This document shows, in pieces, positions 3 to 25,699 of a DNA stretch of 64,000 nucleotides. The notes beneath the pieces are model-generated. The model had not been told where the DNA came from, ran no database searches, and was given only the letters and a program-made list of their open reading frames with translations. This stretch comes from Alteromonadaceae bacterium M269 (lineage in GTDB: Bacteria > Pseudomonadota > Gammaproteobacteria > Enterobacterales > Alteromonadaceae). The stretch spans positions 372,001 to 436,000 of the forward strand of contig SMNZ01000002.1 of NCBI GenBank assembly GCA_004353515.1, read 5' to 3'. The translations under genes and the position numbers were made by a program. Each line of letters begins with the position of its first letter. Position 1 is the first letter of the stretch.

Positions 3-881
3 CAATATATAGAGAACAATAGTTCATCACGTGAATTCGTTGGGTTCCTGGATAACGATGAATCAAAACATGAGACTTCATTTGAAGGCTTACCTATTTA
101 CGCCCCATTCATGTTGGGCGAATTAATCTACGATCAAATCGTTATCACCACGCAGTGGGCATTAGATGTTCAAAAACAACTTATCAATGACTTCGGTGTT
201 GATGTTAATAAAGTTGTTTTACCTGAAAAAAAGCAACTTAAAAAGCCAACGCCTTTCCTTAATCCAGTGAGCCTTGATTTAGCAAGACATATTGTTAAAG
301 CAATCAATACATTGGCGATAGAGCGAGAACTCCCGTTGGCAACTGATTTCGGTACGTTGCTCGGCATAGTGAGAGATGATGATATTATCCCCTGGGATGA
401 CGATATTGACTTTTCTGTACCTGTAGAACGCGCAGAGGCGGCAGAAGCAGTGTGTCAGAGATTTGTTGAGGAGCAGCCAAGAACCCTATTTTGGCGGCTT
501 GAAAAATTAAAGAATAATGCAGGAAAATCTGCTGGTTTACTGATTAAGTTCACCGACCCTAATGGTGAGGTCAGTGAGTTTACGACCTCTGTTTGTTTTA
601 GAGAAAATGTTGATGGTAATGCACTGCATATGCCTAGCCTAGGTATGTGGTATGCGCCAGTTGAGTATTTTGATCAAACTGAAGTATTCCTGTGGAAGGG
701 GACTCAAATTCAGGTTCCTAAAAACTATTTAAGCTACTTAAGTTTTGTTTATGGAGATTGGAAGGTACCCAAGAAGGATATCCAGCTTTCGGATTATGCG
801 CATACAAGGGAAGTTAGCTTCGAGGATGTTAAGAGTGCAGCGATGAGCTGTGAACTGCTCGAGCAGAGTAACGCGAGATAA
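3..881 (+). CDS. LicD-family phosphotransferase (5' end outside window)
   Basis: The reading frame is open from the first bases of the window, so the gene starts upstream. The first ATG inside the window (111) falls in the middle of a domain and should not be taken as the start. The N-terminal part has a GFLDND and GLPIYAP pattern followed by a YDQIVITT strand, like the Rossmann-type module of PglD/CapD proteins. The rest is LicD-like, with the family's acidic signature WDDDIDF at bases 393-413. LicD proteins attach phosphocholine or other phospho-substituents to cell-surface glycans. The gene overlaps the next one by one base (TAATG), so the two are translationally coupled. The family call is firm, but the donor and acceptor are unknown. 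Confidence 0.75.
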   Translation, partial: QYIENNSSSREFVGFLDNDESKHETSFEGLPIYAPFMLGELIYDQIVITTQWALDVQKQLINDFGVDVNKVVLPEKKQLKKPTPFLNPVSLDLARHIVKAINTLAIERELPLATDFGTLLGIVRDDDIIPWDDDIDFSVPVERAEAAEAVCQRFVEEQPRTLFWRLEKLKNNAGKSAGLLIKFTDPNGEVSEFTTSVCFRENVDGNALHMPSLGMWYAPVEYFDQTEVFLWKGTQIQVPKNYLSYLSFVYGDWKVPKKDIQLSDYAHTREVSFEDVKSAAMSCELLEQSNAR

Positions 882-2185
882 TGCCGATGTTTAATAGAGG
901 ATATCTCGCCAATAGCAGTTTGCAGGAAAAAGTTGCCATCATTGGTTGTGGAGAGTCAGCAAAGGTCTTTGCAGAGTGGAGCGAAGTCGAACATTTCGAT
1001 GTATTTACGACATTGGGCGGAGGGCAATTTAGAGATAAGGATGTCCTCGCGGTTGAAACGCTAAGAGAACCCAATGACTATCTACAAATCATCATAGCTA
1101 ATCAGTATGTAGATGAAATACTGGAGCAATGGGTTAACGATAATAAAAGCTTACAGAATGTGTTTTGGTTTGACTTCATGAACTTGAAGTTAGCCCAGGT
1201 GGATTCATTGTCGTATACGCAATCCGCGAAAGATTCATCATTACACGTGATATATGATCTTCATGTATTACCTGCAACTTTTGATATTGCTGCTTTTCTT
1301 GTTAGGGCCGAGTTAAGGCGAATTGAACTCGGGTTGGACAACATCAATCTTATTATTATTGGTGGTAATTTCGGTGGAGTGAGTGCAAGAGCGTGTCTTA
1401 ATCATGGGAGTGAGCAAGGAACTTGGCGGATTCAAAATGTGCTTATTCCAATGTCTCAAATGCTGAAAAGATGTCGTGGTGTTTCTTTTATTCCCAATAA
1501 AAAGTGTTTAAGTGATTTAACCCAAGGTGAAGCAACTTTCCCGCAGGATTTATCTGCAAGACCAGACTTTCGTTTTTATGCTCTTGCTCCCTTGCAGAAG
1601 CGCTTTGAGAGTGGTGCTGATATTCAGGTACTTGAGTCTCCAATGCAGGCAAAGGAATATGCGCGACAATTCCTAAAATCTCATGGGATAAGTAAGCAAT
1701 TTATTACCATTTCGTTAAGAGAATATACGCATCAGGCTTCTCGAAATAGTTGTATAGAGTGTTACCAGTATCTTGCAGAGAGAGTCCTAAATTTAGGGTT
1801 AGGTATTGTCCTAATAAGAGACACCAACAAAGCGTTAGAACAGAAGCTTAATTGGGAAGGGACAGTAGAATGCCCCGTTGCTTCTTTTAATGTGGCGATT
1901 CGGATGGCACTTTACGAATCCGCTTTTATGAATATATCCGTATCATCAGGCCCGTCGTTTGGGTTGATGTTATTGTCTAGGCATTGTGATTTTTTAATGA
2001 CGCACTTGGTTGATAATAGCCAAGTGGTTAGTAGTGAGGCGTTTCTCAAAGAACGGCAAGGTATCAGTGTTGGAGAACAATTCCCTTTTTGCGGTCGGTT
2101 CCAACGTGTTTGTTGGACTGAGGATGCGGAAGAAATAGCAAACGAATTTGAGTTGATGATTAAAGAGAAACTCTCAATTAATTAA
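881..2185 (+). CDS. Glycosyltransferase-like protein, paralogue of the gene at 11309-12610
   Basis: This 434-aa protein matches no family I can name with certainty. Residues 1 to about 110 look like a Rossmann module (VAIIGCGESAK, then IIIANQY). The remainder has a GT-B-like layout with LREY (279-282), RNS (288-290), RDT (313-315) and a late RMALYESA...SGPS segment. The same landmarks occur at equivalent places in the 433-aa product of 11309-12610, so the two are paralogues. The ATG overlaps the stop of the LicD gene. A sugar-transfer role is inferred from fold-like motifs and from the surrounding glycan genes; no catalytic residue is certain. Confidence 0.55.
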   Translation: MPMFNRGYLANSSLQEKVAIIGCGESAKVFAEWSEVEHFDVFTTLGGGQFRDKDVLAVETLREPNDYLQIIIANQYVDEILEQWVNDNKSLQNVFWFDFMNLKLAQVDSLSYTQSAKDSSLHVIYDLHVLPATFDIAAFLVRAELRRIELGLDNINLIIIGGNFGGVSARACLNHGSEQGTWRIQNVLIPMSQMLKRCRGVSFIPNKKCLSDLTQGEATFPQDLSARPDFRFYALAPLQKRFESGADIQVLESPMQAKEYARQFLKSHGISKQFITISLREYTHQASRNSCIECYQYLAERVLNLGLGIVLIRDTNKALEQKLNWEGTVECPVASFNVAIRMALYESAFMNISVSSGPSFGLMLLSRHCDFLMTHLVDNSQVVSSEAFLKERQGISVGEQFPFCGRFQRVCWTEDAEEIANEFELMIKEKLSIN

Positions 2186-2203
2186 AGATATGAGTGTATA
2201 AAT

Positions 2204-3142
2204 ATGAAAGTACTAGTGACAGGGGCATGTGGTTATAAAGGTTCGGTCTTGGTGCCGAAACTACTGAACGAAGGGCATGACGTCGTCGGCATTGATACAC
2301 AATGGTTTGGTAATTTTTTACCGGAACACCCTCGCCTTAGCGTGATTAAGCAGGATGTACGTGACACGGCCAATATAGATTTGACAGACGTTGATGTCAT
2401 TATTCATTTGGCTTCTATTGCTAATGATCCATGCGGTGATCTCAATCCTAAATTGACTTGGGAAGTGAGTGCTCTAGCAACAATGCAGCTCGCTGACAGA
2501 GCCCGTCGAGCCGGAGTGAAGCACTTTATTTATGCATCATCAGGCAGTGTTTATGGTTTAAAAGATGAGCTTCAAGTGACGGAAGATTTAACGCTTGAAC
2601 CAATTTCTGAATATAACAAAACAAAGATGGTTGCTGAACGCGTCATTCTGAGCTACCAAAACGACATGACGGTTCAAGTGGTTAGGCCCGCGACAGTTTG
2701 TGGTTTGTCACCCAGAATGAGATTAGATGTGTCGGTGAATATGCTGGCAATGCAAGCACTAGAAAATGGCAAAATTACTGTTTTTGGTGGCAAGCAAACA
2801 CGCCCAAATATTCATATTGATGATATTACCGATCTCTATATCTTCTTAGTTAACAATACTGATGTAACAGGGGTTTATAACGCAGGGTTTGAAAATATAT
2901 CTATTCTAGATATTGCTAACATGGTGGTTGCAACGACTCCTGCTGAGATTATTACTACACCTTCTAACGATCCTCGTTCTTACCGCATCAATTCTGATCG
3001 GCTGTTAAATACAGGTTTTAAACCTAAAAAGTGTGTCCAAGATGCTATCAACGAGATTGGCGATGCTTATCGGAGCAATGCACTCGTTAATGCAACCCAC
3101 TTCCATAACTTAAAATGGATGCAAGAGAATCAACTCGCATGA
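2204..3142 (+). CDS. NAD-dependent sugar epimerase/dehydratase (extended SDR)
   Basis: This 312-aa extended short-chain dehydrogenase/reductase has an N-terminal nucleotide-binding loop VTGACGYKG (residues 5-13), the ASSGSVYG strand with the catalytic serine, and the YxxxK pair at Y137/K141. A later RPNIHIDDI segment is typical of UDP- or GDP-sugar epimerases. The expected reaction is an NAD-dependent change at C4 or C6 of a nucleotide sugar in the cytoplasm. The exact sugar cannot be read from the sequence. It begins 18 bases after the preceding stop and its stop overlaps the start of the SIS isomerase gene. Confidence 0.85.
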   Translation: MKVLVTGACGYKGSVLVPKLLNEGHDVVGIDTQWFGNFLPEHPRLSVIKQDVRDTANIDLTDVDVIIHLASIANDPCGDLNPKLTWEVSALATMQLADRARRAGVKHFIYASSGSVYGLKDELQVTEDLTLEPISEYNKTKMVAERVILSYQNDMTVQVVRPATVCGLSPRMRLDVSVNMLAMQALENGKITVFGGKQTRPNIHIDDITDLYIFLVNNTDVTGVYNAGFENISILDIANMVVATTPAEIITTPSNDPRSYRINSDRLLNTGFKPKKCVQDAINEIGDAYRSNALVNATHFHNLKWMQENQLA

Positions 3143-3708
3143 TTGAACATAGCAAGAAATACTTAAACAAGCTTTACGCAACGACTGAAGCTTTTGATTG
3201 GTCAAAAGTAGAGCCTCTTGCAGAGCATATGATAAAAGCTGTACGAGAAGGTAGGCATGTATTTATATGTGGAAATGGAGGAAGCGCCGGAAATGCTATC
3301 CATTTAGCCAATGACTTTTTATATGGCATTGAGCCAAGTGGAAATGCAATGAAAGTTGAAGCATTAGCTGCAAACTCTGCTGTACTCACTTGCTTAGGTA
3401 ATGATATCGGTTATGAAAACATTTTTTCTCACCAGTTGAAGGTAAAAGCGAAGCCCGGTGATTTGCTGTTAGTACTTTCAGGTAGTGGTAATTCACCTAA
3501 TATCCTCAGAGCTTTGGAGCAAGCAAAGGAAAGTGAGATGATCAGTTTCGCTATCCTTGGTTACACTGGCGGCAAAGCGAAAGAGATGTCTGATTTTCCA
3601 ATGCACTTTGATGTTGACGACATGCAGATTTCCGAAGATCTCCAATTAATGATTGGGCATATGTTAATGCAATACCTATGTCAAAAATTGGGAGCAAAGG
3701 ATGAGTAA
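3139..3708 (+). CDS. SIS-domain phosphosugar isomerase, GmhA-like
   Basis: This 189-aa SIS-domain protein has the phosphosugar-binding loop CGNGGSAGNA near residue 45 and a second loop LSGSGNSPN. Both are characteristic of sedoheptulose-7-phosphate isomerase (GmhA) and its relatives, and the length fits GmhA. I chose the ATG at 3139 because it forms an ATGA overlap with the upstream stop. An in-frame ATG at 3115 would overlap the previous gene by 28 bases and has no visible ribosome binding site. If it is a true GmhA, it would convert sedoheptulose 7-phosphate to D-glycero-D-manno-heptose 7-phosphate. A split transketolase downstream could supply that substrate. Confidence 0.8.
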   Translation: MIEHSKKYLNKLYATTEAFDWSKVEPLAEHMIKAVREGRHVFICGNGGSAGNAIHLANDFLYGIEPSGNAMKVEALAANSAVLTCLGNDIGYENIFSHQLKVKAKPGDLLLVLSGSGNSPNILRALEQAKESEMISFAILGYTGGKAKEMSDFPMHFDVDDMQISEDLQLMIGHMLMQYLCQKLGAKDE

Positions 3709-4690
3709 TGTTGTTTGTGTTATAGGGAGTAACTCTTTTTCAGGCTCAAGTTTTTGTAAGCATTTACTAAAACTTGGATATGAGGTGATAGCGATTAGTC
3801 GTTCCGCTGAACCCGTATTTGCTTTAGCCCCTCATCAATGGGTTCAAGAGGCAAGTGTCCAGTTTCATCAACTCGATATTAATCACCATCTGGAAGAGAT
3901 AGAAGCATTACTTGATACAAGGAAGCCTTCGCATATCTATAACTTTGCTGCGCAAAGCATGGTTGGACAAAGTTGGGAGTTTCCTGAGCATTGGTTTATG
4001 ACCAACGCCGTATCCACTATTAAGCTACACAACCTGCTTCGTTTTAAAGATTACTTGGAACGCTATATACATATTACAACACCGGAGATTTATGGTAGTT
4101 GTAGTGGTTTTGTTAGTGAGGATCATCCTTACAATCCAAGTACGCCATATGCTGTGTCGAGAGCCGCAGCCGATATGAGTTTAAAAACGTTCTTTGATGT
4201 CCACCAATTCCCAGTTGTTAGCACAAGAGCAGCTAATGTTTATGGGGAAGGGCAACAGCTTTATCGTATTATTCCAAAGACTATTATCTCAATCTTAACC
4301 GGAGAAAAACTTCCTTTGCATGGTGGCGGTCATTCCGAACGGTCATTTATCCATATTGATGATGTTTCAGAAGCAACATTGAAAATAGGGGAGAAAGGAG
4401 TCCTCGGTGATTGTTATCACATTTCAACTCTCGACACGATTTCAATTCGCGGGCTTGTTCAGAAAATATGCGATAGCCTATCGGTTAACTTTGATGATGT
4501 ATGCGATATCGTTGGGGACCGTCCCGGAAAAGATGCTGCCTATTTATTAGATGCTACAAAACTAAGAACAACCTTAGATTGGCAAGATAAAATCACTCTA
4601 GATGTTGGGTTAGAACAGACAGTTGATTGGGTCAAGAACAACCTCACTGAGCTATCAAAGCAGCCAACAAGCTATATTCATAAGGCCTAG
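3701..4690 (+). CDS. NDP-sugar 4,6-dehydratase-like SDR with YxxxR in place of YxxxK
   Basis: This 329-aa extended SDR most resembles dTDP-glucose or GDP-mannose 4,6-dehydratases. It has an N-terminal VIGSNSFSG loop, a TPEIYG segment, an RAANVYGEGQ segment and an RSFIHIDD segment. The catalytic pair reads Y150-AVS-R154, so arginine replaces the usual lysine. GGAG lies six bases before the ATG, and the start overlaps the previous stop by 8 bases. A 4-keto-6-deoxy sugar from such an enzyme is the usual substrate of the C-methyltransferase family encoded further on. Function is inferred from the family, and the R154 change leaves activity open. Confidence 0.75.
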   Translation: MSNVVCVIGSNSFSGSSFCKHLLKLGYEVIAISRSAEPVFALAPHQWVQEASVQFHQLDINHHLEEIEALLDTRKPSHIYNFAAQSMVGQSWEFPEHWFMTNAVSTIKLHNLLRFKDYLERYIHITTPEIYGSCSGFVSEDHPYNPSTPYAVSRAAADMSLKTFFDVHQFPVVSTRAANVYGEGQQLYRIIPKTIISILTGEKLPLHGGGHSERSFIHIDDVSEATLKIGEKGVLGDCYHISTLDTISIRGLVQKICDSLSVNFDDVCDIVGDRPGKDAAYLLDATKLRTTLDWQDKITLDVGLEQTVDWVKNNLTELSKQPTSYIHKA

Positions 4691-4693
4691 TAA

Positions 4694-5347
4694 ATGGAAA
4701 TTGATTTATTAAAAAACTACCCCAAAAGTAAAAGAAATACTAAGGGCCGCAGTGAAATAATGAGTGAAGAAGTGAAAGCTATTGCTCGGCAATATGGTAA
4801 AGACTTCTTTGACGGTGACAGACTGTATGGTTATGGCGGTTTTAGTTATATGCCGCGGTTTTGGCAACCAGTCGTTCCTGACCTAATTTCCCATTTCAAT
4901 TTGAAAGCGGACAGCAGCTTGTTGGATGTAGGCTGCGCGAAAGGATTCATGCTGTACGATTTGCTTCAGCATATGCCGGAGATGCAAGTGTCAGGTTTGG
5001 ATATTTCTGAGTACGCAATTGAAAATGCAAAACCGGAAGTGAAGGATTTACTTCAAGTAGGTGATGCTAAAGCTTTGCCGTATGAGGATGATAGTTTCGA
5101 TGTAGTGATGAGTATCAATACAGTGCACAATCTTGAAAAAGATGAGTGTGCGGCAGCGCTGCAAGAGATTATGAGAGTGAGCCGTGGGAAAGCTTTTATA
5201 ACGGTTGATGCATACAGAAATGATGAAGAGCAAGAACGTATGATGCAATGGGCGTTGACTGCCAAAACCATTATGCATGTTGATGATTGGAAATCGTTCT
5301 TCAAAGAAGTGGGATATACGGGTGATTTTTATTGGTTTATTCCCTAA
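4694..5347 (+). CDS. Class I SAM-dependent methyltransferase
   Basis: This 217-aa protein has a Methyltransf_11/25-type core: motif I LLDVGCAKGF, an acidic residue ending the second strand (VSGLDIS), then VGDAKALPYEDDSFDVV and the post-motif VMSINTVHNL. A start at 4694 gives 22 residues before an alternative in-frame ATG at 4760; both are plausible. It starts three bases after the stop of the dehydratase-like gene. The substrate is probably a sugar or sugar nucleotide of this cluster, but nothing in the sequence specifies N-, O- or C-methylation. Confidence 0.8.
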   Translation: MEIDLLKNYPKSKRNTKGRSEIMSEEVKAIARQYGKDFFDGDRLYGYGGFSYMPRFWQPVVPDLISHFNLKADSSLLDVGCAKGFMLYDLLQHMPEMQVSGLDISEYAIENAKPEVKDLLQVGDAKALPYEDDSFDVVMSINTVHNLEKDECAAALQEIMRVSRGKAFITVDAYRNDEEQERMMQWALTAKTIMHVDDWKSFFKEVGYTGDFYWFIP

Positions 5348-5407
5348 CTCAAGGTTAGGTATGGGCACGATTAAATCAGAAAATGAAATTTATAGGTTGT
5401 AAATTAC

Positions 5408-6214
5408 ATGCACGACAACACCATTATTAACCAAGTCAGACATCAGCTCGTTGACCTGTCTCATCAAAATAAAGTGCCACATTTAGCATGCGCATTGTCT
5501 TGCGTTGATATTCTTTACGCTTTGTATTTCCATGCAATGAAGATAAAACCCTCAGAGCCTAATCATGCTCAAAGAGATAGATTTTTGTTGGGGAAAGGGC
5601 ATGCAGTGGCGGCACTATACTGTATGTTAGCGCAGCGTGATTTTTTCTCTCCAGATGACGTATATAGCCTTGGTCAAGATGGTAGCGCATTTGAAGAGCA
5701 CCCTGGTGTGAACTCACCTCCCGGTGTAGATAATATTTCCGGCTCTTTAGGGCATGCACTTGGCCTTGCTACTGGCATGGCAAAGGCTTCTAAGATTAAA
5801 GGAACAAAAGAGCATTTTTATGCGCTAGTCGGTGATGGCGAATTAAATGAAGGAACCAACTGGGAAGCTGCAATGTTTGCTCCAGCTCATCGGCTAGACA
5901 ATGTGACTCTCATTGTAGACTTTAATAAACTCCAAGGAACGGGGCGAAGTTGCGAAATCATGCAGCTGGATGACCTCGCCGAAAAATGGCGTGCATTTGG
6001 TTGGAATACCTTGGAGATTGATGGACATGACGTTGAACAACTTAAGGCTGCTCTCAGCAGTGATTCAAGTGTTGCTGGAAAACCCAAAGCGATAGTTGCA
6101 CACACAGTAAAAGGAGCGGGTATATCCTTTATGCAAGATGACAATAATTGGCATTATCGCATTCCTACCCTAGAGGAAGTTGAACTGTCTGCAAAGGAGT
6201 TGGGTTTAAGATGA
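5408..6214 (+). CDS. Transketolase N-terminal subunit (split transketolase)
   Basis: This 268-aa protein corresponds to the thiamine-diphosphate-binding half of transketolase. It has GKGHAVAALY, the GSLGHALGLATGMA segment and the cofactor/Mg motif GDGELNEG (D143) followed about 25 residues later by DFNKLQ. It overlaps the gene for the C-terminal half through ATGA, as expected for a two-subunit enzyme. Split transketolases of this sort are common in secondary or surface-sugar loci, separate from the full-length housekeeping enzyme. The reaction is transfer of a two-carbon ketol unit. Here the acceptor may be ribose 5-phosphate, giving sedoheptulose 7-phosphate, or a keto-sugar, giving a branch. 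Confidence 0.9.
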   Translation: MHDNTIINQVRHQLVDLSHQNKVPHLACALSCVDILYALYFHAMKIKPSEPNHAQRDRFLLGKGHAVAALYCMLAQRDFFSPDDVYSLGQDGSAFEEHPGVNSPPGVDNISGSLGHALGLATGMAKASKIKGTKEHFYALVGDGELNEGTNWEAAMFAPAHRLDNVTLIVDFNKLQGTGRSCEIMQLDDLAEKWRAFGWNTLEIDGHDVEQLKAALSSDSSVAGKPKAIVAHTVKGAGISFMQDDNNWHYRIPTLEEVELSAKELGLR

Positions 6215-7128
6215 GAAACAAATTTGCTGAATGCTTAACTCAGTTAGCCAAAACAAATGAAGATATATGCTTACTTTATGCGGATATAGGAAACCGGCTG
6301 TTCAACAATCTCAAAGAGATTGCTCCTGACCGAACAATCAACGCTGGGATTGCAGAAGCTAACATGGCAACCATGGCTTCTGGAATGGCACAAATGGGGT
6401 TTCGTCCATTTATTTACACTATCACTCCATTTACAACCGCACGAAACTTTGAACAGATAAAAATTGATCTCGCTTATGCCAATGTCCCTGTAGTTATCGT
6501 TGGTACAGGGTCTGGCTTGGCCTATGCGAATCTTGGGCCTACACATCATTCATTTGAAGATATAGCGCTTATGCGTGTGTTACCCAATATGAAGATCGTA
6601 TGCCCGGCAGATTCCATGGAATTGGAAGCATTAATGCCGGAATTGCTTAAAGAAACAGGGCCTGTTTATTTGCGTATAGGCAAGAAAAATGAGCCTCAAA
6701 ATTATTCTGATATCCCCAAATTAACTGTTGGGAAGGCACACTTGTGCAGAGAAGGGCAGCGCGTGACATTGCTGTGTACAGGAACCGCATTGCATATTGG
6801 TAATCAGGTTGCTGATGAGCTGTTGTCTAAAGGTATTTCTGCTGAGCTTGTTAGTATGCATACAGTGAAGCCGTTAGATACTGGTTTTTTATCTACAATC
6901 CCTGCTGATAAGCTTGTCGTCAGTATCGAGGAGCATAGCTTAAATGGCGGGTTTGGTAGTGCTCTCTGTGAGTGGTTTAATGATAGTGACTGGGAAGGTA
7001 AGGTGTTGCGTTTCGGGATCCCTGATACCTTTATTGATCAGTTAAGCGGACCTCAGGCAGCGAGAGATAGAATTGGTTTAACTGCACCTGACATAACATC
7101 TCGTATTCTTAAAAAGTTGTCTCTATGA
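6211..7128 (+). CDS. Transketolase C-terminal subunit (split transketolase)
   Basis: This 305-aa protein contains the pyrimidine-binding and C-terminal domains of transketolase. The NAGIAEANM segment carries the glutamate (E49) that activates thiamine diphosphate. LGPTHHSFEDIALMRVLPN and the C-terminal domain starting around residue 185 complete the family pattern. It is coupled by ATGA overlaps to both the N-terminal subunit upstream and the HAD gene downstream. The active enzyme is expected to be a heterotetramer with the 5408-6214 product. Confidence 0.9.
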   Translation: MRNKFAECLTQLAKTNEDICLLYADIGNRLFNNLKEIAPDRTINAGIAEANMATMASGMAQMGFRPFIYTITPFTTARNFEQIKIDLAYANVPVVIVGTGSGLAYANLGPTHHSFEDIALMRVLPNMKIVCPADSMELEALMPELLKETGPVYLRIGKKNEPQNYSDIPKLTVGKAHLCREGQRVTLLCTGTALHIGNQVADELLSKGISAELVSMHTVKPLDTGFLSTIPADKLVVSIEEHSLNGGFGSALCEWFNDSDWEGKVLRFGIPDTFIDQLSGPQAARDRIGLTAPDITSRILKKLSL

Positions 7129-7703
7129 GAATCGGTATAGACTTTGATAATACTATCGTTAACTACGATGGCGTATTTTATAAAGCTGGACGAAGATTAG
7201 AATGGCTTCCTAAGCTTGATGATGAAAGTAAACAAGCCGTTAAAAGTTATTTCATTTCGCGTGGTGAAGAGCCCCGCTGGACTGAATTGCAAGGTATTGT
7301 TTATGGTTCTGATATCCGTTTCGCTAAGCCTTATGAGGGTATCTACGAAATTTTAGGTAGATGGAAAGACGTAGGACATCAAATGTTCCTCGTGAGCCAT
7401 AAAACCAAGTTTCCTATCATCGGAGATAAATTAGACTTTCACCAAGCTGCTAGCAATTGGTTGAAGGAAAATGACCTTATGCCTTATTTTGAGGAAACGT
7501 ATTTTTGTCCTCAAAAAGATGAAAAAGTCGAAATGATAGGGAGGCTGGAACTGGACTATTTTATTGATGACCTACCTTCAATACTTAATGCTGTGAACTT
7601 TCCACAAAAGACTCACGGCGTTTTATTTTCTCCAGATAACCAAGATGGTAATGGCTTACGGTCTGTTTCCAAATGGGCTGAGCTATTAAAAGTAGTATGT
7701 TAG
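7125..7703 (+). CDS. HAD-superfamily hydrolase-like protein
   Basis: This 192-aa protein opens with MRIGIDFDNT, the DxDxT motif (D6, D8) of haloacid-dehalogenase phosphatases. The later motifs are VSHKTKF (Ser/Thr motif) and YFIDDLPS (motif IV). Phosphatases of this type remove phosphate from sugar phosphates in glycan pathways. It is not a clear GmhB, since the GmhB pattern LDRDGT is absent. It overlaps transketolase-C by ATGA and precedes a kinase-like gene, so it may act on the same phosphorylated intermediate. The substrate is unknown. Confidence 0.75.
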   Translation: MRIGIDFDNTIVNYDGVFYKAGRRLEWLPKLDDESKQAVKSYFISRGEEPRWTELQGIVYGSDIRFAKPYEGIYEILGRWKDVGHQMFLVSHKTKFPIIGDKLDFHQAASNWLKENDLMPYFEETYFCPQKDEKVEMIGRLELDYFIDDLPSILNAVNFPQKTHGVLFSPDNQDGNGLRSVSKWAELLKVVC

Positions 7704-13899: not shown

Positions 13900-13900
13900 G

Positions 13901-15989: not shown

Positions 15990-16522
15990 GTTTAGACAAT
16001 CTTCAACTAATGAAAGAGAGCGAAGGTGTATACAGAACAACAACCTCAGTGTCTGTTATCTCACAAGAACATTTAGCGCTTATAAAAAGAGAGGCAGAAA
16101 GTGTCAGTCGCAAGAGAGCACGGATCTGCTTACACCCAACTAATGACTCTCCGTTGCATGAAATGTTTATAGCATTATCAGGACAAGGGTACGTTAAGCC
16201 GCATAAGCACTTGAAAAAGAGCGAATCTTTTCATCTTGTTGAAGGAGATATTGCCGTTATATTGTTCGACGACAATGGACATGTGACTCAATCAATACGT
16301 CTATCAACGTTGAATACTAGGTACTATCGCTTGGAGGCAGGAACTTTCCATACCATTGTTGTTTTATCTGAATTAGCGGTTATTCATGAAGTGACTGACG
16401 GGCCTTTTGTTGCCTCTGAAACCGAGTATGCCGATTTTGCACCGGATGAAGGGAGCCCTGACGTTGGCGTGTATTTGGATAGCTTTGTTGAAGCGGCTAA
16501 TGGCGTAACCAATTTAACTTGA
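15986..16522 (+). CDS. WbuC-like cupin-fold protein
   Basis: This 178-aa protein resembles the WbuC family found at the ends of O-antigen loci. It has an N-terminal helical part followed by a cupin barrel with KPHKHLKKSESFHLVEG, which supplies two metal-ligand histidines and a glutamate. AGTFHTIVVLSE supplies the third histidine. The biochemical role of WbuC is not well defined, and a metal-dependent step on a sugar intermediate is assumed. It is the last gene of the plus-strand run, overlapping the preceding stop by ATGA and facing a minus-strand gene 25 bases away. Confidence 0.75.
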   Translation: MSLDNLQLMKESEGVYRTTTSVSVISQEHLALIKREAESVSRKRARICLHPTNDSPLHEMFIALSGQGYVKPHKHLKKSESFHLVEGDIAVILFDDNGHVTQSIRLSTLNTRYYRLEAGTFHTIVVLSELAVIHEVTDGPFVASETEYADFAPDEGSPDVGVYLDSFVEAANGVTNLT

Positions 16523-17584: not shown

Positions 17585-20500
17585 CTAACTTGTTCTATTG
17601 ATGACGTACTTTTGACCGAAAAACTCTTTATCAGGCTGGGTGGTGTTTGAGATGCCAAGGTGATTTTGAAGGCGCTCATCAAATACTCGCTCAGTCAAAT
17701 AAGCCAATACAAAATCTTTTGTTGAGAGGGGCTTGTGTACTCTTCGGTTTCTTGTTCCAAATGGTGATATTAATGCTTCTGGACTTGGCGGCGATTTGTA
17801 TGCTACATAATAGGAGTTGCATGGCTCATAGATATATAGTGATTCACGCATTGAATCTGTGGGTACTACTTTATCTGATAAACTACCTTCAACAGTACTG
17901 TACTTTAAGAAGATAGTACTAGGTTGGTAAACTGCTAAACATGCATTCATTGCTCTATGAGCCACAAAAACTAAGCTAGTAAATATAGGTAGTTTCTCTT
18001 GATTAAGATTTATCCGAACTGGCATCCTAATTATCTTTTCTGCAATCGGGATTGATGCAGGTTTACTTCTTAGATCAATATTTTCTATAAGTAGAGTAGA
18101 TTGGGAGCCAAAAATAAAATTGCCCACTTTTGAAGCTTTAAAATCTGGCTTGTCAATTATTTTATGTGGTTCATTGAAATAGTAGATAACAAAATCAAAC
18201 CTATCGGCTAAGAGTTTGCAGGCTTCTGATAAGCTGCAAACCAATACTTGCCTTAACATATTGAAACTTGCCGATTCACTGATATTCTTTACGGCTTTTA
18301 AAAAGTGCGTTGAATCAGTAATTACAAGGACTCTTTTGTTGGATAGCTCCGTTTTCCTTAACAATAACTCGCGATTGTGCTTGTTAAACGACGATGTATC
18401 GAATTGATGTTCATTCAACCTGATCAATCGACTTATTTGTTTAAAGCTTTGTTTCCAAGTCTCTAATGCGTCATGGAAAAATGTTGCTTGTTGAGTTTCC
18501 TCATCCAGTGTATGCAATAACTTAGATAAGACAGCATTAGCATAGTTGACCGTTCCATATAGATAATAGAATAAGAGTGAGTTTCCGTTTTGATATGAAT
18601 TAAATAACTTCTCTTTTTGGCCTGCGATAAGAGAAGCTCCTTGCTTACGGCTATCAATCGGTGTTTCCAAAAACTCTTCAAAATTGATTAATTCTTGTTC
18701 TAATACATTAGGATCGAATTTTTCTCGATGGAGGCTTACTGTGCTATCGCCACTCTTATGTTGATACGCTTTATTCTTGATGTTTTCGACAGCGAGTTGC
18801 TTTTCATTTGAACTTGTTGTGATGAGGATATCGTCTAATTGTAGAGGATGTGTACCATTTACCTTGGCACCATCACTGCAATTGTAAAAGGTGCATTCTT
18901 TCGCTTTCTTTAAGATGATATGTTCTAAGATCTCTTTAGAAATCTTAAATTCATGTTTAGTATAAACTAGCGGCCTGAAGTTTCCTGGGACCTGTATTGA
19001 GGTGTTGTTTGCTTCAGCATAATCATAAAACTCAGAACCATCATCGTTATAGTATGAAGACGACTTCGAATGGTGGTGTTTATTATCAATAAAGCCAAGA
19101 TCAATACCGATAAAGTAGAGGCTTTTAAATCCAAGTACTGAAAAAAGGTTAGTCGCAAAGTTCGCTACTGTTGGAAAAGCGTCCTCTAGCACCTCGAAGT
19201 GACTGCGGCCTAAAATTTCCAAGCTTGATATTGTTGATGATTCACCTTCCTTAAACGAGATATAAACATCTTTGTAAAGCGATACAGTGTCTGGGTGCAC
19301 GCCGTTACATGAAATAAGACTAACTTGCTTTAAGTACTCTTTATCGCCAATTAAGGATGCCCAATCATAAGTCGTACGGTTTTGTTCAATCTCAGCATGG
19401 AAGTCAGGTGTGATGTTGTTGCTGTGAAGAACTTTTAGAGATGTTCCACAAGAAACCACAATAACCTTATCTCGATACTCTTTTATATATTCTATTGAGT
19501 GATCTAATGATGGGCCATTACCGACTAGGAATATGGGTGTTTCCTGATTGTCATATGTTAATTTCTTATTTGGCTTACTTGTCAGAAGAGGGAAGTCTTG
19601 CTTTAACCCTTCTAGGGTTTGTGAGATACCGTAATAAGCGTGGTCGAAGTTTTCGCCCATCGCTATAACAACCTTAAGTTGCTCCCTCAGTTGGGCAATT
19701 GCAGTGTTTAGCGCTGCATTATAGTAACTTTGATAAAAATAGGTGTTGTTCAAAATATAGGGACCAATAACATGGAATTGGCTTAAAAGATCCCTAAACA
19801 GGTTAGTGCCGTCGTCTCCGATATTGAGGTAAATACGATGTTCGGATTTATCAATATCAGAGAGTATAGATGCCCAATCAACAGCAAATAGGGATGCATA
19901 GAAGAAGTCCCTGTTGGGTTCACAAATAAAGAGGTTCTCAATATTATGCTCTTTTACCAGATCCTCCAGCTGATAGCCGACTCCAAGACCGAAAATAATT
20001 ATTGATTGGATATCCTCTGGAAGAAGTCCGCTTTCTTCTCTAACACGCTCGATAAGATCTTCTGTCGCTTTAACAAACTGGTTATGTTCGTAATGAGCAA
20101 GTTTTTTGCCTTTATATCCAAGTACTAAACCATCTTTTAATGGATGTTTTCTGAAACTTTCATAGTTGAGCTTACATTCGTCTATTGTGTCAGTTGAATA
20201 CCACCCCGCAAGTTTATCTTTTTCAAGGATGTTGACTTCACCGTTATTAGATAAAATTGGAAGCCAATCTGACGGTTCATAAGATTCGAACTGCTCAGCT
20301 ATATCTGGAAAGTACTTTTTGAATGCCACTATATTTTTCTGATATCGAGGCAAGCTTGTCGAACACAACTGATAGTTACTTAAATCTATTTGAGGGAGCC
20401 AAGGAGGACAGTACTTATTAACGCTTTGAGTAGCATTAAAGTGTAAGCCTTCAGAAACTAGTTTGTCCCATGGAGTACTTAATAGCTGGTCATAAACGGA

Positions 20501-21232
20501 GTCATAGACTAAATGATGATAGTGTTTGTAAACATGAAAACCTTCAATTTGGAAATGTTCAGTGAGTTGCTGAATGTCGGAAAGCAGATCTCTTCCATCC
20601 TGACCAACTTGAATGAATAAATTTGTTCCTTTCCGTTTTGCTGTTTCTAAGATATTTTTCCAGCTCACAACGGAAACTGAATTAGATAAGTACTGAGGTT
20701 CGGCTTCATAGATGATCAGGTGTTTTATATCCGAGCGCTCGATTAGCTGTTCTATATGAACTCCAAGCCCACAACCTAATACGACTAAACACTCAATTGT
20801 ATCTTTAATTGATGGCGCATTGATAAGCTGCTTGAGTGCTGTACTTGCATTTTGTAATGCTTCATCAATGAACAGAGTTGCGTCACTTTCTCTTTCTTTG
20901 TTTGCGGCTACATCAATGTTTTTAATTGGTACATACATCGGGTATTTATAAAAATGGTCTACCTGTTTAATGATCTCCTCCACAGGGTGGAAGCCATAAA
21001 ATGCCTTACCAATACTGAAGTCAACCAGGTTAAATTCACCGTATTTATTATTAAAAACAGCAATGCTTTTTCTTTCAATAGCATTTAGTGTATTGAGGAT
21101 AGCGGGAATATGTCGTTGAAATGAATTAACATTTTCTTTATGTGTTTTAGTTATGTGCTCGGCTAATTCCTCGTCTAGCCGAGCCTGTATCTGCTCATTC
21201 TCGTCTAAGTGTAAGTGTATGTTTTTTAACAT
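17585..21232 (-). CDS. Giant Maf/DUF115 motility accessory glycosyltransferase
   Basis: This 1215-aa protein belongs to the motility-associated factor (Maf, DUF115/MptE-like) family, which transfers nonulosonic or related sugars to flagellin. Typical members are about 600-700 aa. The DUF115 core lies around residues 560-800 and is marked by FLVGNGPSLDHSIEYIK, VSCGTSLKVL, TPDFHAEIEQNR and YFIGIDLGF. In front of it are two related Rossmann-like segments: VLGCGLGVHIEQLI with IYEAEPQYL, and IFGLGVGYQLEDLV with ICEPNRDFF. They suggest an internal duplication. The C-terminal 400 residues have no recognised domain. The nearby flagellin gene at 24896 is the obvious target protein. Confidence 0.8.
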   Translation of the reverse strand: MLKNIHLHLDENEQIQARLDEELAEHITKTHKENVNSFQRHIPAILNTLNAIERKSIAVFNNKYGEFNLVDFSIGKAFYGFHPVEEIIKQVDHFYKYPMYVPIKNIDVAANKERESDATLFIDEALQNASTALKQLINAPSIKDTIECLVVLGCGLGVHIEQLIERSDIKHLIIYEAEPQYLSNSVSVVSWKNILETAKRKGTNLFIQVGQDGRDLLSDIQQLTEHFQIEGFHVYKHYHHLVYDSVYDQLLSTPWDKLVSEGLHFNATQSVNKYCPPWLPQIDLSNYQLCSTSLPRYQKNIVAFKKYFPDIAEQFESYEPSDWLPILSNNGEVNILEKDKLAGWYSTDTIDECKLNYESFRKHPLKDGLVLGYKGKKLAHYEHNQFVKATEDLIERVREESGLLPEDIQSIIIFGLGVGYQLEDLVKEHNIENLFICEPNRDFFYASLFAVDWASILSDIDKSEHRIYLNIGDDGTNLFRDLLSQFHVIGPYILNNTYFYQSYYNAALNTAIAQLREQLKVVIAMGENFDHAYYGISQTLEGLKQDFPLLTSKPNKKLTYDNQETPIFLVGNGPSLDHSIEYIKEYRDKVIVVSCGTSLKVLHSNNITPDFHAEIEQNRTTYDWASLIGDKEYLKQVSLISCNGVHPDTVSLYKDVYISFKEGESSTISSLEILGRSHFEVLEDAFPTVANFATNLFSVLGFKSLYFIGIDLGFIDNKHHHSKSSSYYNDDGSEFYDYAEANNTSIQVPGNFRPLVYTKHEFKISKEILEHIILKKAKECTFYNCSDGAKVNGTHPLQLDDILITTSSNEKQLAVENIKNKAYQHKSGDSTVSLHREKFDPNVLEQELINFEEFLETPIDSRKQGASLIAGQKEKLFNSYQNGNSLLFYYLYGTVNYANAVLSKLLHTLDEETQQATFFHDALETWKQSFKQISRLIRLNEHQFDTSSFNKHNRELLLRKTELSNKRVLVITDSTHFLKAVKNISESASFNMLRQVLVCSLSEACKLLADRFDFVIYYFNEPHKIIDKPDFKASKVGNFIFGSQSTLLIENIDLRSKPASIPIAEKIIRMPVRINLNQEKLPIFTSLVFVAHRAMNACLAVYQPSTIFLKYSTVEGSLSDKVVPTDSMRESLYIYEPCNSYYVAYKSPPSPEALISPFGTRNRRVHKPLSTKDFVLAYLTERVFDERLQNHLGISNTTQPDKEFFGQKYVINRTS

Positions 21233-21365: not shown

Positions 21366-22181
21366 TTATGGTTTGATGATTATTCCTTGGCCTGTTGGCA
21401 AAGCGAGGATAGTTACGTCTTTTTCTTTTGCAAATATGTCAAATGCGACTTTTTGCTCTTCGTATTGTACTAGGCCATAGTCGTCTAAAAGAATGACTCC
21501 ACCTGATATTATTTTATCCCAAAAAAAGTTAGCTGCTGCTATTTCAGGCGCAGCGCAGTTCATATCTAGTGATAAATAGCAAACTTTATTAATCTCAACA
21601 TTCTCAAGCGTTTTGGGGATCATGCCTTTGATCAATTTGACATTTTTATAGGTGGAAAAATGATTGTTCACTTGGTCGAATTGGTCAGCATAAAATTTGT
21701 TTAAGTAGTTAATCTTACCTATTTGCTGCTTTTCATTCTTGTTTAATTGTTCGTTATCCAGCCCTTCCCAACTATCAAAAAGGTAGAAATGCCTCTCTGG
21801 CATAGGCCAGTTAATATAATTCAATATAGCTGTTGTATAGAAACCTCGCCATACGCCGCACTCTACAAAGTCACCTTCTAGCTTTTCTGCAACAGAAGCG
21901 CACCATAATGCAACGTGTGTCGTCCAATATTTTTTATTTGGTGACTCTGAAACTGTTTCACTTGCTTTTTTATAGGAACGAACATATTTGTCATCTAATA
22001 AAAAGTCGTGATTGTGGATTTTTTGAGGATCAATTGACAAGCCATCATAATCGTAATTAGACGTGTATATATTCTTATTCGTATAGGATGTGGCTTGTTC
22101 TGTTGTTTCTTGTTTTTCTACACTAACTCGTTCGATTCTGTACCCTAAATGCCTAATAAGGCTATTTAAAAAGTGAGGCAT
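21366..22181 (-). CDS. TylF/MycF-family O-methyltransferase
   Basis: This 271-aa protein resembles macrocin O-methyltransferase (TylF) and MycF. Motif I is FVECGVWRGFYTTAIL, followed by YLFDSWEGL, then YLSLDMNCAAPEIAA. The metal-binding pair lies in GGVILLDDYG. Family members methylate sugar hydroxyls using SAM and Mg2+, and relatives are frequent in lipopolysaccharide and flagellin-glycosylation loci. AGGAG lies about nine bases before the ATG. The gene is divergent from the HldE-like gene and probably precedes the Maf gene in the same direction, separated by 133 bases. Confidence 0.82.
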   Translation of the reverse strand: MPHFLNSLIRHLGYRIERVSVEKQETTEQATSYTNKNIYTSNYDYDGLSIDPQKIHNHDFLLDDKYVRSYKKASETVSESPNKKYWTTHVALWCASVAEKLEGDFVECGVWRGFYTTAILNYINWPMPERHFYLFDSWEGLDNEQLNKNEKQQIGKINYLNKFYADQFDQVNNHFSTYKNVKLIKGMIPKTLENVEINKVCYLSLDMNCAAPEIAAANFFWDKIISGGVILLDDYGLVQYEEQKVAFDIFAKEKDVTILALPTGQGIIIKP

Positions 22182-22487: not shown

Positions 22488-23966
22488 TTGTCCACATTAA
22501 TTACGTTTGAACAATTATTAAATAAGCGAGCAGAACTGGATAAAGTTGTGCTGGTAACCGGTAATTTTAATATTCTCCACCCAGGGCATATTAGGCTGTT
22601 ACGGTTTGCGAAAGAGTGTGGTCAAACATTAATTGTCGGTGTTAATGAGAATAATAGTGAAAGCACATCAGAGCATTTAGATGCGAAGCACCGGCTTGAA
22701 GTCGTCGCATCTTTGGAGTACGTAGATTTCGGTTTTATCAACACTAAGAGTAGTGTTGAGTTGATAGATGCGCTGAAACCTTGGGCTGTAGTGAAAGGTA
22801 AAGAGTATGAAAACCTCAATAATGCAGAAGAAGCGGCATTAAAAGCCTATGGTGGACGGCTAATTTTTAGTTCCGGTGATAGTGGCGCGAGTTCGCAGTC
22901 TTATCTCAAGACGCGCGCAGTTAAGGATGTTCATGTATCAAATCTAAATGGTTATCTGGAACGACAAAATATTGACCTTGATAGAGTTAATGAGGTTATA
23001 GACCGATTTTCGAAGAAAAGGGTGCTGGTCATTGGTGACACTATAGTCGACCAATATATGCAGTGTAATGCGGTTGGTATGTCCCAAGAAGACCCTACAA
23101 TAGTTGTAACACCCGATGAGTCTAAGTTCTTCTTAGGTGGAGCTGGGATCGTTGCAGGTCATGCGAAGTCATTGGGCGCTTCTGAGGTTAGTTACTTTAG
23201 CGTATTAGGTCATGACAAACAGGCTGACTTTGCTGAAACAAAGTTATTGGAGTACGGGATATCACCTCATGTTTTCTTTGATGAGACTCGCCCCACGAAT
23301 TTGAAAACACGATACCGTGTTGGTAGTAAAACACTTTTGCGTGTAAACGAAGTTAGGTCTCATGATATTTCGAAAGAGATCCAAGCAAGGATTTTAAGTG
23401 ACCTCGAAGCAAAAATAGCCAATGCGGATTTGTTGTTATTCTCTGATTTTAACTACGGCATGTTGCCACAAGAGCTTGTTGATGAAATCACTACATTAGG
23501 TGTTAAGCACGGTGTTGTTATGGCTGCAGATAGCCAAACATCTTCTCAAGTTGGGGATATTGCAAGATTTAAAGGAATGGATTTTGCTTCACCTACTGAG
23601 AGGGAGGTGAGAGTAGCACTTAAAAATGACAAGGATGGCTTAGTTGTTCTTGGACAGAAGTTGACAGAAATTTCGAGATGTAAAAACTTGTTGATAACCT
23701 TGGCTGAAGAGGGGATTTTTATACATAAGCCTAGCGGTACTAGCTGGGAAAATGATCGAATAAAAGCCTTAGCAGCAAACCCCATTGACCCAGCAGGCGC
23801 TGGCGATTGCCTGTTTACCGCTACTACACTGGCAATGACCTCCGGGGCATCTATATGGGAAGCATCCTTTATTGGTTCGGTTGCAGCGGCTTGTCAGGTA
23901 GCCAATGTGGGAAATTTGCCTATAGATTCAAATCGATTCAGGCAAGCAGTTAATCAGTTTCGATAA
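22488..23966 (+). CDS. HldE-like bifunctional enzyme with reversed domain order (nucleotidyltransferase then PfkB kinase)
   Basis: This 492-aa protein has two domains. Residues 1 to about 150 are a cytidylyltransferase-fold nucleotidyltransferase with VTGNFNILHPGH, where HPGH is the HxGH motif at 31-34. Residues from about 178 to the end are a PfkB/ribokinase-family sugar kinase: VLVIGDTIVDQY at the start, FFLGGAGIVAGHAKSLGA, and the catalytic DPAGAGD (GAGD 437-440). E. coli HldE has the same two activities in the opposite order. The likely product is an ADP- or other NDP-activated heptose or related sugar. The start is TTG. A sigma-28-like promoter lies upstream and no gene is coupled to it. 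Confidence 0.75.
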   Translation: MSTLITFEQLLNKRAELDKVVLVTGNFNILHPGHIRLLRFAKECGQTLIVGVNENNSESTSEHLDAKHRLEVVASLEYVDFGFINTKSSVELIDALKPWAVVKGKEYENLNNAEEAALKAYGGRLIFSSGDSGASSQSYLKTRAVKDVHVSNLNGYLERQNIDLDRVNEVIDRFSKKRVLVIGDTIVDQYMQCNAVGMSQEDPTIVVTPDESKFFLGGAGIVAGHAKSLGASEVSYFSVLGHDKQADFAETKLLEYGISPHVFFDETRPTNLKTRYRVGSKTLLRVNEVRSHDISKEIQARILSDLEAKIANADLLLFSDFNYGMLPQELVDEITTLGVKHGVVMAADSQTSSQVGDIARFKGMDFASPTEREVRVALKNDKDGLVVLGQKLTEISRCKNLLITLAEEGIFIHKPSGTSWENDRIKALAANPIDPAGAGDCLFTATTLAMTSGASIWEASFIGSVAAACQVANVGNLPIDSNRFRQAVNQFR

Positions 23967-23998
23967 AGAAGTGGCTTCACCATTTAATGCAAGAAAGC

Positions 23999-24706
23999 TT
24001 ATGGAATAAATGCTAGAAACTCCTCTTGAGCTAATTTGTAGCTTTTAGGGGTTCCTATATCACGATGATATATTTCATTGACCCATGAGTACATCTTGCC
24101 TTCAAGGTAAGGAATAACTTCTAAGCTTATGTCGCTTGCATTGTTTTTCTTAATCCAGTCGATAATAGCTGGTGTCAGTATATAGACGGCTGCATTTGCT
24201 AAATCACCCGGTGGCTCCTCAACTTTTTCATGCATTTTAAGGACGATATTATTTATGTCCCGTTCTACAATGCCGCATTCTTTGGGATACTGCGTTCTGA
24301 ATAACATCATTGTAGCTTGGCTTGTGGGTGGCCTTTTTTTGTGAGCTTGAATAAAAGTGTTTAAGTCAAATTTTGAAAGGTTATCCGCATGTATGACGAG
24401 GGTATCCTTATTCGTTAATAACGAGGCATTTTCTCGCAGAGTTCCAGCAGTACCTAAAAGATCCTTTTCTCTCCAAATCACCAATTTTGTGCATGTTTTC
24501 CATTTAGCTTCTAGGTGAGAAACGACAACCTCTTCTAGGTAACATACATTGATAAATATGCGGTCAATATTATTATTTTCGGTTAACATTTCTAACCAAT
24601 AATCTAGTAGAGGTTTACCACAGATTGGTACCATACATTTAGGTATGTCATTGGTTAATGGACGAAGCCTCGTCCCCATTCCAGCAGCAAGCAATACAGC
24701 GTTCAT
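23999..24706 (-). CDS. Sugar-1-phosphate nucleotidyltransferase
   Basis: This 235-aa NTP_transferase-fold enzyme has the signature LLAAGMGTRLRPLT at the N-terminus, then KCMVPICGKPLLDYW. The metal-binding aspartate lies in VIHADNLS, and a late NAAVYIL segment is present. Such proteins activate a sugar 1-phosphate (mannose, glucosamine or heptose type) with GTP, CTP or dTTP. The length and opening resemble HddC- and PtmE-like enzymes. I prefer the ATG at 24706 over an upstream TTG at 24709. It converges with the HldE-like gene, with 32 bases between the stops, and diverges from flagellin. Substrate uncertain. Confidence 0.78.
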   Translation of the reverse strand: MNAVLLAAGMGTRLRPLTNDIPKCMVPICGKPLLDYWLEMLTENNNIDRIFINVCYLEEVVVSHLEAKWKTCTKLVIWREKDLLGTAGTLRENASLLTNKDTLVIHADNLSKFDLNTFIQAHKKRPPTSQATMMLFRTQYPKECGIVERDINNIVLKMHEKVEEPPGDLANAAVYILTPAIIDWIKKNNASDISLEVIPYLEGKMYSWVNEIYHRDIGTPKSYKLAQEEFLAFIP

Positions 24707-24895
24707 CAAATGGCTATCCTGTACCTTTGTCTTAATCTAATTATTTTGCTTAAGCTCTTATCTTAAAAGCTATTTTTGCATTCTACGCATATAGGTATAG
24801 AAATACATCCCTAGTTATAACTAGCTAATGTGCCAGTTGGTTACCATTTGAGCGGTTCTCTGCTATTATTTATGGAGGTATATGAGGGTAGGGCT

Positions 24896-25699
24896 ATGGT
24901 TGATTTCAACACGAATGTCGGTTTTTCACCGCTAGAACAATTACGCGAACGTCAAGAATCTGTTTTTGAACGATTATCATCTGGAAGACGGATAAATGAC
25001 GCGAGTGACGGCGCTGCTGCTCAACAGATCATCGACCGACTGACGTCTAATGTAGAAGGTAATCGTCAATCTATTGCCAATGCTTTTGATGGTGTGTCTT
25101 TGGCACAAGTTGCTGAAGGCGGATTATCTGGTATCAATGACAGCGTCCAGCGTATTCGTGAATTATCCATCCAAGCTGGTAGCGGTATATTAACGGATGC
25201 CGATCGTTCAGCAATTCAAGCTGAGGTTGCCCAGCTTCAAGAAGGGATTGTTGATACCATCAATAGTACAGAGTTTGCTGGCCAATCCCTCTTAAGTTCT
25301 GATTCAGAAATAAATTTCCAGGTTGGTGCAAATCCAGGTCAAACAATTAGCGTCGGAACTCAAGATTTTGAAGCTGCATTAGACGGTATTCTTAATGTTG
25401 ATTTAAGTACTGCTGAAGGCGCACAGAACGCTCTTGCTGAAGCAGATGCTGCTCAAGATCTTGTTGGTGCAGCTCAGTCTGAGCTCGGTGCTACTCAGAA
25501 TCAATTTGAATCAGCAGCACGAAATTTGGCAACGGCTGATGTTAACGCCGCTGCAGCTCGAAGCCGTATTCAAGATACTGATTTTGCTCAAGCAACGGCA
25601 GAGAGTATTGCACTAGGTGTTAGAACTGATGCTGCGATAGCAATTCAAGCACAGGCAAATCAGCAAGAAGGGCAGGTGTTAGCACTGCTTGGACAATAA
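24896..25699 (+). CDS. fliC: Flagellin (short, D0/D1 only)
   Basis: This 267-aa protein has the conserved flagellin ends. The N-terminal D0/D1 has FERLSSGRRINDASDGAAA and the helices up to QSLLSSD near residue 140. The C-terminal part has SRIQDTDFAQATAES and ends in LALLGQ. The middle is short, so the variable D2/D3 domains are absent. I placed the start at the ATG 24896 because GAGG lies eight bases upstream and the protein then begins MVDFNTNVG. An in-frame GTG at 24830 would add 22 unflagellin-like residues. It is the only flagellin in the window and the probable acceptor of the neighbouring glycan. No clear sigma-28 or sigma-54 promoter was found in the 189 bases upstream. Confidence 0.92.
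   Translation: MVDFNTNVGFSPLEQLRERQESVFERLSSGRRINDASDGAAAQQIIDRLTSNVEGNRQSIANAFDGVSLAQVAEGGLSGINDSVQRIRELSIQAGSGILTDADRSAIQAEVAQLQEGIVDTINSTEFAGQSLLSSDSEINFQVGANPGQTISVGTQDFEAALDGILNVDLSTAEGAQNALAEADAAQDLVGAAQSELGATQNQFESAARNLATADVNAAAARSRIQDTDFAQATAESIALGVRTDAAIAIQAQANQQEGQVLALLGQ

Follow-up and report, generated by a model that had tools for sequence, protein, structure and literature searches.

The window analysed here is a stretch of 64,000 nucleotides (C11:372001-436000) from the 5.6-Mb genome of Alteromonadaceae bacterium M269, and it opens inside a flagellar island of about 38 kb in which genes for pseudaminic acid stand next to genes for a phosphonate. The island is bounded on the left by fliS (end at C11:358394) and on the right by a divergent flagellin gene and fleQ (from C11:396830). 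The window edge bisects it, and the window genes form its right part. In the left flank (flaG, fliD and fliS were named by eye), the gene order was flgL, four ordinary flagellins, flaG, fliD, fliS, PseB, PseC, PseF, a 313-aa protein, PseI, PseG, PseH, an 84-aa acyl carrier protein (ACP), an AMP-ligase, a ketoreductase, a gene on the minus strand that weakly matches PEP-CTERM, a phosphoenolpyruvate (PEP) mutase fusion, phosphonopyruvate decarboxylase, an iron alcohol dehydrogenase and LicD. Inside the window, a run of sugar genes (3-24709) is closed by a flagellin-family gene, as a preliminary description made from the window alone had reported.

All six enzymes of the pseudaminic acid pathway exceeded the curated NCBIfam cut-offs: PseB with 561 bits (cut-off 408), PseC 533 (424), PseF 333 (206), PseI 510 (340), PseG 223 (154) and PseH 135 (93). 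Thus, a complete PseB-C-F-I-G-H pathway is present in the island. The sole NeuB-family match in the genome (C11:362624-363346) falls within the PseI gene (C11:362453-363580), about 9 kb left of the window start and in the same gene run. The preliminary description had seen no nonulosonate synthase, which is correct inside the window and incorrect for the island, and had suggested a glycan other than the well-known nonulosonic acids, which is not supported in view of the complete pathway just outside the window. The nonulosonate-free impression was an edge artefact, because the pse genes sit just left of the window; a flagellin island of that kind was ruled out on the sole NeuB-family match and the full pse set in one gene run. 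Across the 295 genomes of the family, PseI above the cut-off was found in 183. The 313-aa protein between PseF and PseI weakly resembles GT9 heptosyltransferases (predicted model, pLDDT 77). In the islands of four other genomes (G195, G288, G214 and G074), the variable cargo contains a second, distant PseI-like synthase (30-35 % identity) together with a PseF-like protein, and a second nonulosonic acid is therefore likely there.

The phosphonate block lies left of the window except for its last gene, LicD, which is the first gene of the window. The PEP mutase (409 bits; model cut-off 320) and the phosphonopyruvate decarboxylase (459 bits; cut-off 312.5) were both above their cut-offs, and the motif EDKXXXXXNS was intact in all 12 aligned PEP mutase fusions. 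Named relatives of the PEP mutase occur in Paraglaciecola, Alteromonas, Aliiglaciecola and Rheinheimera, and two culturable bacteria, Paraglaciecola hydrolytica S66 and Alteromonas lipotrueae, contain the block. The N-terminal half of the fusion belongs to PF01467 and contains the HxGH motif. When this half was compared with solved chains, it matched 5x3d without gaps (E-value 1.6e-62; 212 bits; 89 of 134 residues, or 66 %, identical), which we take to be the cytidylyltransferase domain of Fom1 (the structure table names it phosphoenolpyruvate phosphomutase). The next families were ethanolamine-phosphate cytidylyltransferase (71 bits) and choline-phosphate cytidylyltransferase (32 bits). Fom1 produces CMP-2-hydroxyethylphosphonate (CMP-HEP) (PMC6697681; for this and all other published work, excerpts of the cited papers are the source). 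From its sequence, the first half of the fusion is predicted to be a HEP cytidylyltransferase of the Fom1 type. The iron alcohol dehydrogenase was assigned as the HEP-forming phosphonoacetaldehyde reductase solely from gene context. No 2-aminoethylphosphonate (AEP) transaminase match above the cut-off of TIGR03301, the sole model run, was found in the genome (best 196 of 361 bits). On this result AEP was set aside as the likeliest phosphonate, and HEP is the likeliest product of the block.

The LicD-family gene begins at C11:371958, 43 bases before the window, and its C-terminal 881 bases occupy window positions 1-881 on the plus strand. The protein matched PF04991 (51 bits; cut-off 22.6) and carries the motif LLGIVRDDDIIPWDDDID. 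The match and the DDDID motif place it in the LicD family, and a phosphotransferase role is predicted. It closes the phosphonate block and directly precedes the window's sugar genes. Relatives of this LicD (E-values up to 1e-12) were found in 49 of the 295 family genomes, and in at least 41 of these LicD lies within 15 kb of PseI (10 with the fusion and 31 without). PseI also adjoins LicD in the stretches fetched from G128, G222 and G135, which brings the total to at least 44 of 49; the five genomes not counted are G159 and G237, as well as G115 (a fetched stretch without PseI), G167 (PseI unplaced) and G205 (no stretch fetched). In several family genomes without the phosphonate block, LicD directly follows PseI.

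Of the 37 genomes that have LicD and lack the fusion, 16 were sampled for the slot beside LicD, and eight proteins from six of them were put to Pfam. The slot contained a PF01467 cytidylyltransferase after LicD (G211 and G163), a second LicD (G211 and G294), a Stealth protein (directly after LicD in G112; after Maf in G122), and ATP-grasp and HAD proteins (G186). As the slot proteins differ in this way, the LicD slot seems to hold interchangeable phospho-transfer modules, the phosphonate block among them.

The full-length fusion (68-100 % identity) was found in 12 of the 295 family genomes, including the window's own. Ten of the 12 have PseI on the fusion's own contig, 5-9 kb away, and flagellar genes stand beside all ten. 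When the neighbourhoods of all 11 fusion-bearing relatives were inspected, nine contained PseB-C-F, PseI and PseG (in either order), PseH-like and acyl-type genes and then the PEP mutase, decarboxylase and iron alcohol dehydrogenase triad (PepM-Ppd-FeADH). These nine islands are flanked by fliD-fliS and/or by the divergent flagellin and fleQ. LicD directly follows FeADH in seven of the nine; the exceptions are G207 and G175, with LicD on the opposite strand and a block that begins at the fleQ side. Maf is present in eight (the contig of G175 ends too soon), and in G288 it stands immediately before PepM.

A natural exchange of cassettes was observed between two genomes of the same genus, G182 with the phosphonate block and G163 with LicD and a PF01467 protein. 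Between the last flagellin gene and a point inside luxE, at about position 16000 of the G182 stretch, their DNA was 98-100 % identical in 500-base segments, with one segment at 93 %, and this near-identity covers the first 13 kb of the island. Past that point identity was 70-79 %, and homology stopped at 17823, close to where luxC ends; beyond it the cassettes are different. A second pair (G238 and G294) exhibited the same kind of change after the ketoreductase, at lower overall identity. The phosphonate block has been swapped in one piece, within a flagellar island that is otherwise nearly identical.

The island's Maf flagellin glycosyltransferase (17585-21232, minus strand; PF20157 389 bits, PF01973 105 bits) is the only PF01973 match in the genome. 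By sequence it matched one solved chain, 5mu5 (E-value 1.4e-53), presumably a Maf protein although the structure table lists it as 'uncharacterized'. The position of the run and the Maf gene uphold the earlier view of a flagellin glycosylation island that includes a Maf-family protein. The divergent flagellin at the right border (24830-25699, plus strand; by eye, a start at 24896 is more likely) matched the Flagellin_N profile only from position 21. It was rejected as the main filament protein, being a divergent paralogue in a run that has four ordinary flagellins elsewhere (C11:350815-355902, 16-21 kb left of the window). Relatives of it were seen directly beside fleQ in G182, G238, G195, G288, G207, G175, G214 and G074. 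A crude hydropathy scan gave no island protein with more than two membrane-span-like segments, and flippase-family genes are on other contigs. From the flagellar borders, the single Maf and the location of the flippase-family genes elsewhere, we infer that flagellin is the acceptor.

The island very probably equips flagella with pseudaminic acid. On balance, we consider its probable product to be a pseudaminic acid glycan that bears HEP and is transferred by Maf, together with a heptose-like or branched sugar made by the window genes. In this scheme, whose products and HEP site are predictions, PseB-C-F-I-G-H would yield CMP-pseudaminic acid, and the ACP, AMP-ligase (AMP-synthetase) and ketoreductase, the genes of which are all present in the island, probably provide an acyl group. 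The PEP mutase, phosphonopyruvate decarboxylase and iron alcohol dehydrogenase would convert PEP to HEP, and the Fom1-like cytidylyltransferase fused to the mutase would activate it to CMP-HEP. LicD would then transfer HEP in ester linkage, either to pseudaminic acid or to a sugar attached to it. The remaining window genes would supply a further sugar, probably heptose-derived or C2-branched and C-methylated, and Maf would attach the glycan to flagellin in the cytoplasm. The earlier impression of an unusual flagellar glycan is upheld as probable, its oddest part, the phosphonate pathway, being outside the window except for LicD.

When named genomes were scanned, at least 577 PEP mutase relatives were found, of which 80 were kept, many of them with short flanks. 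A PseI-like gene (at least 45 % identity) was in the available flank of 11 of the 80 (L074-L077, L079, L080, L082, L086, L093, L099 and L139; L075, L076, L080 and L099 are the same records as G195, G143, G214 and G175, respectively). In Nitrincola alkalilacustris (L082), genes for PseH, ACP, AMP-ligase, ketoreductase, PseI, LicD and a Maf-like PF01973 protein, with PseI and LicD overlapping, stand in this order next to a divergent phosphonate triad, whose PEP mutase groups with Marinospirillum (support 88). Phosphonate and pseudaminic acid genes seem to have been paired independently here. PEP mutase triads were also seen with PseB- and PseC-like genes nearby in L127 (Prochlorococcus SCGC AAA795-I06) and L134 (an archaeal metagenome-assembled genome), and near PseB-, PseF-, PseG- and PseI-like genes in L093 (Desulfobotulus). 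The two sets of genes are thus paired in other lineages too.

Several observations weigh against a HEP-bearing flagellar glycan. With a PseI-like gene in so few of the 80 flanks, the phosphonate triad appears to serve mostly other surface glycans, and the 10-kb flanks in Nitrincola yielded no flagellar gene. In G159 and G237 the fusion is in another kind of locus and PseI is on another contig. When 88 PEP mutases were placed in a quick tree, the island copies of the family formed one group of 15 rows (SH-aLRT 94), and therefore the Alteromonadaceae cases are related and not independent; the group also includes the non-flagellar G159, and the flanks of L074 and L079 contain Pse genes and no flagellar gene. 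In most of the placed cases (31 of 41) LicD occurs where the fusion is absent, which indicates that the LicD donor varies between genomes, and G074 carries the phosphonate block with a LicD only 31 % identical. Finally, the iron alcohol dehydrogenase scored 279 bits, below the cut-off of 424 of its best model, the phosphonate Fe-ADH model TIGR03405.

The wide occurrence of the triad in other surface-glycan neighbourhoods and the two fusions away from PseI could be read as signs that the flagellin island is an ordinary one for pseudaminic acid and that its phosphonate genes are there by chance or serve a different surface polymer, for example O-antigen or capsule. We regard this as rather unlikely. 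Ten of the 12 family fusions are within 9 kb of PseI in flagellar islands, LicD tracks PseI in at least 44 of 49 genomes, the block was swapped as a unit within a near-identical flagellar island, and the flippase-family genes are on other contigs. Pure chance co-location was set aside on the PseI proximity, the LicD-PseI pairing and the cassette swap. It is quite unlikely, in turn, that flagellin is decorated with a phospho-group other than HEP on pseudaminic acid, either because the phosphonate is processed further or is a different one or because LicD targets a separate, for example heptose-like, sugar. The low dehydrogenase score, the position of LicD directly before the window's sugar genes and the differing LicD donors would fit such a product, whereas the Fom1-like cytidylyltransferase, the lack of an AEP transaminase above the cut-off, the overlap of LicD with PseI in Nitrincola and their adjacency in block-free family genomes argue for HEP on pseudaminic acid. 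A flagellar glycan without any nonulosonic acid, as first proposed, agrees with the window having no nonulosonate synthase of its own and carrying paralogues of canonical heptose enzymes, and is very improbable given the complete pseudaminic acid pathway in the same island and in the islands of relatives.

The closest known kind of locus is the Group II polar flagellin island of Aeromonas, which has in common with the present one the pse genes, Maf, an acyl carrier protein, a 3-oxoacyl-ACP reductase, an AMP-dependent synthetase and a sugar-gene region of variable content (PMC7874193). The Aeromonas islands also contain luxE and luxC, as do relatives such as G182, and the excerpts mention no phosphonate genes, whereas in the present island a PEP mutase block with LicD comes after the acyl genes (PMC7874193). 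In Group II, luxE and luxC are followed by the fgi-1 glycosyltransferase; no luxE or luxC is among the island genes of this genome (fgi-1 was not searched for), and the island was therefore classed as a variant and not as a Group II member. Fom1 of fosfomycin biosynthesis likewise has a PF01467 cytidylyltransferase N-terminal to PEP mutase (66 % identity in that half); it belongs to an antibiotic pathway, whereas the fusion here is in a glycan island with LicD (PMC6697681).

Phosphonate on a flagellar glycan was also reported for the type A flagellin of C. difficile, there as a minor form with AEP on N-acetylglucosamine, in a species in which no pepM was found and, according to the excerpts, with no pathway known (PMC8861647). 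The b-type flagellin glycan of P. aeruginosa likewise has a phosphodiester-linked substituent, dimethylthreonine on a deoxyhexose, with phosphate rather than phosphonate (PMC11833859). In Prochlorococcus and SAR11, also marine and with phosphonate genes beside protein glycosylation genes, phosphonylated O-glycoproteins were proposed through a PglL oligosaccharyltransferase, with the acceptor unknown (PMC8931226); in the text available from that paper 'pseudaminic' is absent and 'flagell' occurs only in two reference titles, on flagellates. The LicABCD phosphorylcholine system similarly combines a cytidylyltransferase with LicD transfer to a glycan, its donor is CDP-choline, and 'flagell' and 'phosphonate' are absent from its available text (PMC10434233). 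Judged by titles, abstract starts and passages, no work in the open-licence PMC literature was found to join a phosphonate pathway to a flagellin island.

Phosphonates form a sizeable share of marine dissolved phosphorus, and the cell structures that carry them are an open question, for which surface glycoproteins have been proposed (PMC8931226). Phosphonate genes tied to flagellin point to a candidate carrier that is easily purified. We tentatively suggest, as possible rather than probable, that marine Alteromonadaceae and some other gammaproteobacteria make an HEP-substituted pseudaminic acid flagellar glycan, that HEP is one of several recombination-swapped modules of the LicD slot (phosphonate, a CDP-activated group and Stealth-type phosphate transfer), and that shed flagella are one source of HEP in marine dissolved organic phosphorus. 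The cassette swap suggests that flagellar phospho-substituents are swapped in the manner of antigen types, with possible consequences for grazers and for phages that bind flagella.

The sugar made by the window's own genes is the least certain part of this account. Most of the parts listed in the preliminary description were recovered, namely the GmhA-like isomerase, the split transketolase, the two C-methyltransferase family members, the WbuC-like cupin and the HldE-like enzyme; a gene is also present at the place of its sulfotransferase, with a weak identity. All of the following are on the plus strand unless stated. After LicD come a 434-aa protein (881-2185; no Pfam family above cut-off), possibly and uncertainly a GT-B glycosyltransferase, an NAD-dependent sugar epimerase/dehydratase of the short-chain dehydrogenase/reductase (SDR) type (2204-3142; PF01370; 75-79 % identical in G143, G074 and G288), the GmhA-like SIS isomerase (3115-3708), which reached 117 bits and is below the gmhA cut-off of 209, a GDP-mannose/dTDP-glucose 4,6-dehydratase-like enzyme (3701-4690) and a methyltransferase (4694-5347). 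The low-confidence model of the 434-aa protein (pLDDT 63) is weakly like GT9/TibC. As both this model and that of the 313-aa protein are only weakly GT9-like, no substrate was named.

The transketolase is encoded by two adjacent genes, the N-terminal half (5408-6214; PF00456, 133 bits; GDG motif) and the C-terminal half (6211-7128; PF02779 and PF02780; GIAE motif). They are followed by a weak HAD-like phosphatase (7125-7703; HAD_2 E-value 0.0033, below cut-off), a weak APH-like kinase (7708-8679; APH E-value 0.021, below cut-off), a zinc alcohol dehydrogenase (8676-9728), a second methyltransferase (9744-10436), a possible sulfotransferase (10440-11306; Sulfotransfer_2 E-value 0.0015, below cut-off) and a 433-aa paralogue of the 434-aa protein (11309-12610; 25 % identity). 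Then come the first C-methyltransferase family protein (12607-13899; PF08484, 106 bits), an RmlD-like SDR (13877-14827), the second C-methyltransferase family protein (14793-15989; PF08484, 63 bits), the WbuC-family cupin (15986-16522; TIGR04366, 138 bits, cut-off 42) and, on the minus strand before Maf, a 305-aa protein (16548-17465) with no family found and no relative in the fetched relatives. Beyond Maf are a TylF-family O-methyltransferase (21366-22181, minus strand; PF05711), the HldE-like kinase/nucleotidyltransferase (22488-23966; below cut-off) and a sugar-1-phosphate nucleotidyltransferase (23999-24709, minus strand; PF00483, 116 bits).

The domain order of the HldE-like protein is reversed relative to canonical HldE, with the cytidylyltransferase first and PfkB second, and full-length relatives of this reversed form are present in G288, G143 and G074. 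In the same three genomes, the SDR-GmhA-dehydratase genes recur with the pair of HldE-like enzyme and nucleotidyltransferase; the SDR and the GmhA-like gene are also in the fusion-free island of G081. Canonical GmhA (contig C26) and HldE (contig C22) exceeded their cut-offs, and the window copies are therefore dedicated paralogues, probably for a heptose-derived sugar. Among the 11 relatives, G143 alone has strong relatives of both transketolase halves, the HAD and APH proteins and the zinc alcohol dehydrogenase. Split transketolases have been proposed, without demonstration, to add a hydroxyacetyl branch to keto-sugars, as in the miharamycin case (PMC12247030), and by analogy the one here may add a two-carbon branch.

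Two minor features were also observed. A 179-aa minus-strand protein within the island (L011:11625-12164), opposite in orientation to its neighbours, gave a weak PEP-CTERM match (E-value 0.047, below cut-off). In addition, the flagellar cluster further along the window has an apparent insertion (45239-52530) between flhB-like (43889-45016) and flhA-like (52587-54686) genes. Named by eye, like these two, its genes encode an efflux-adaptor-like protein, two permeases and an ABC ATPase, along with a sensor kinase and a response regulator of the sigma-54 type.

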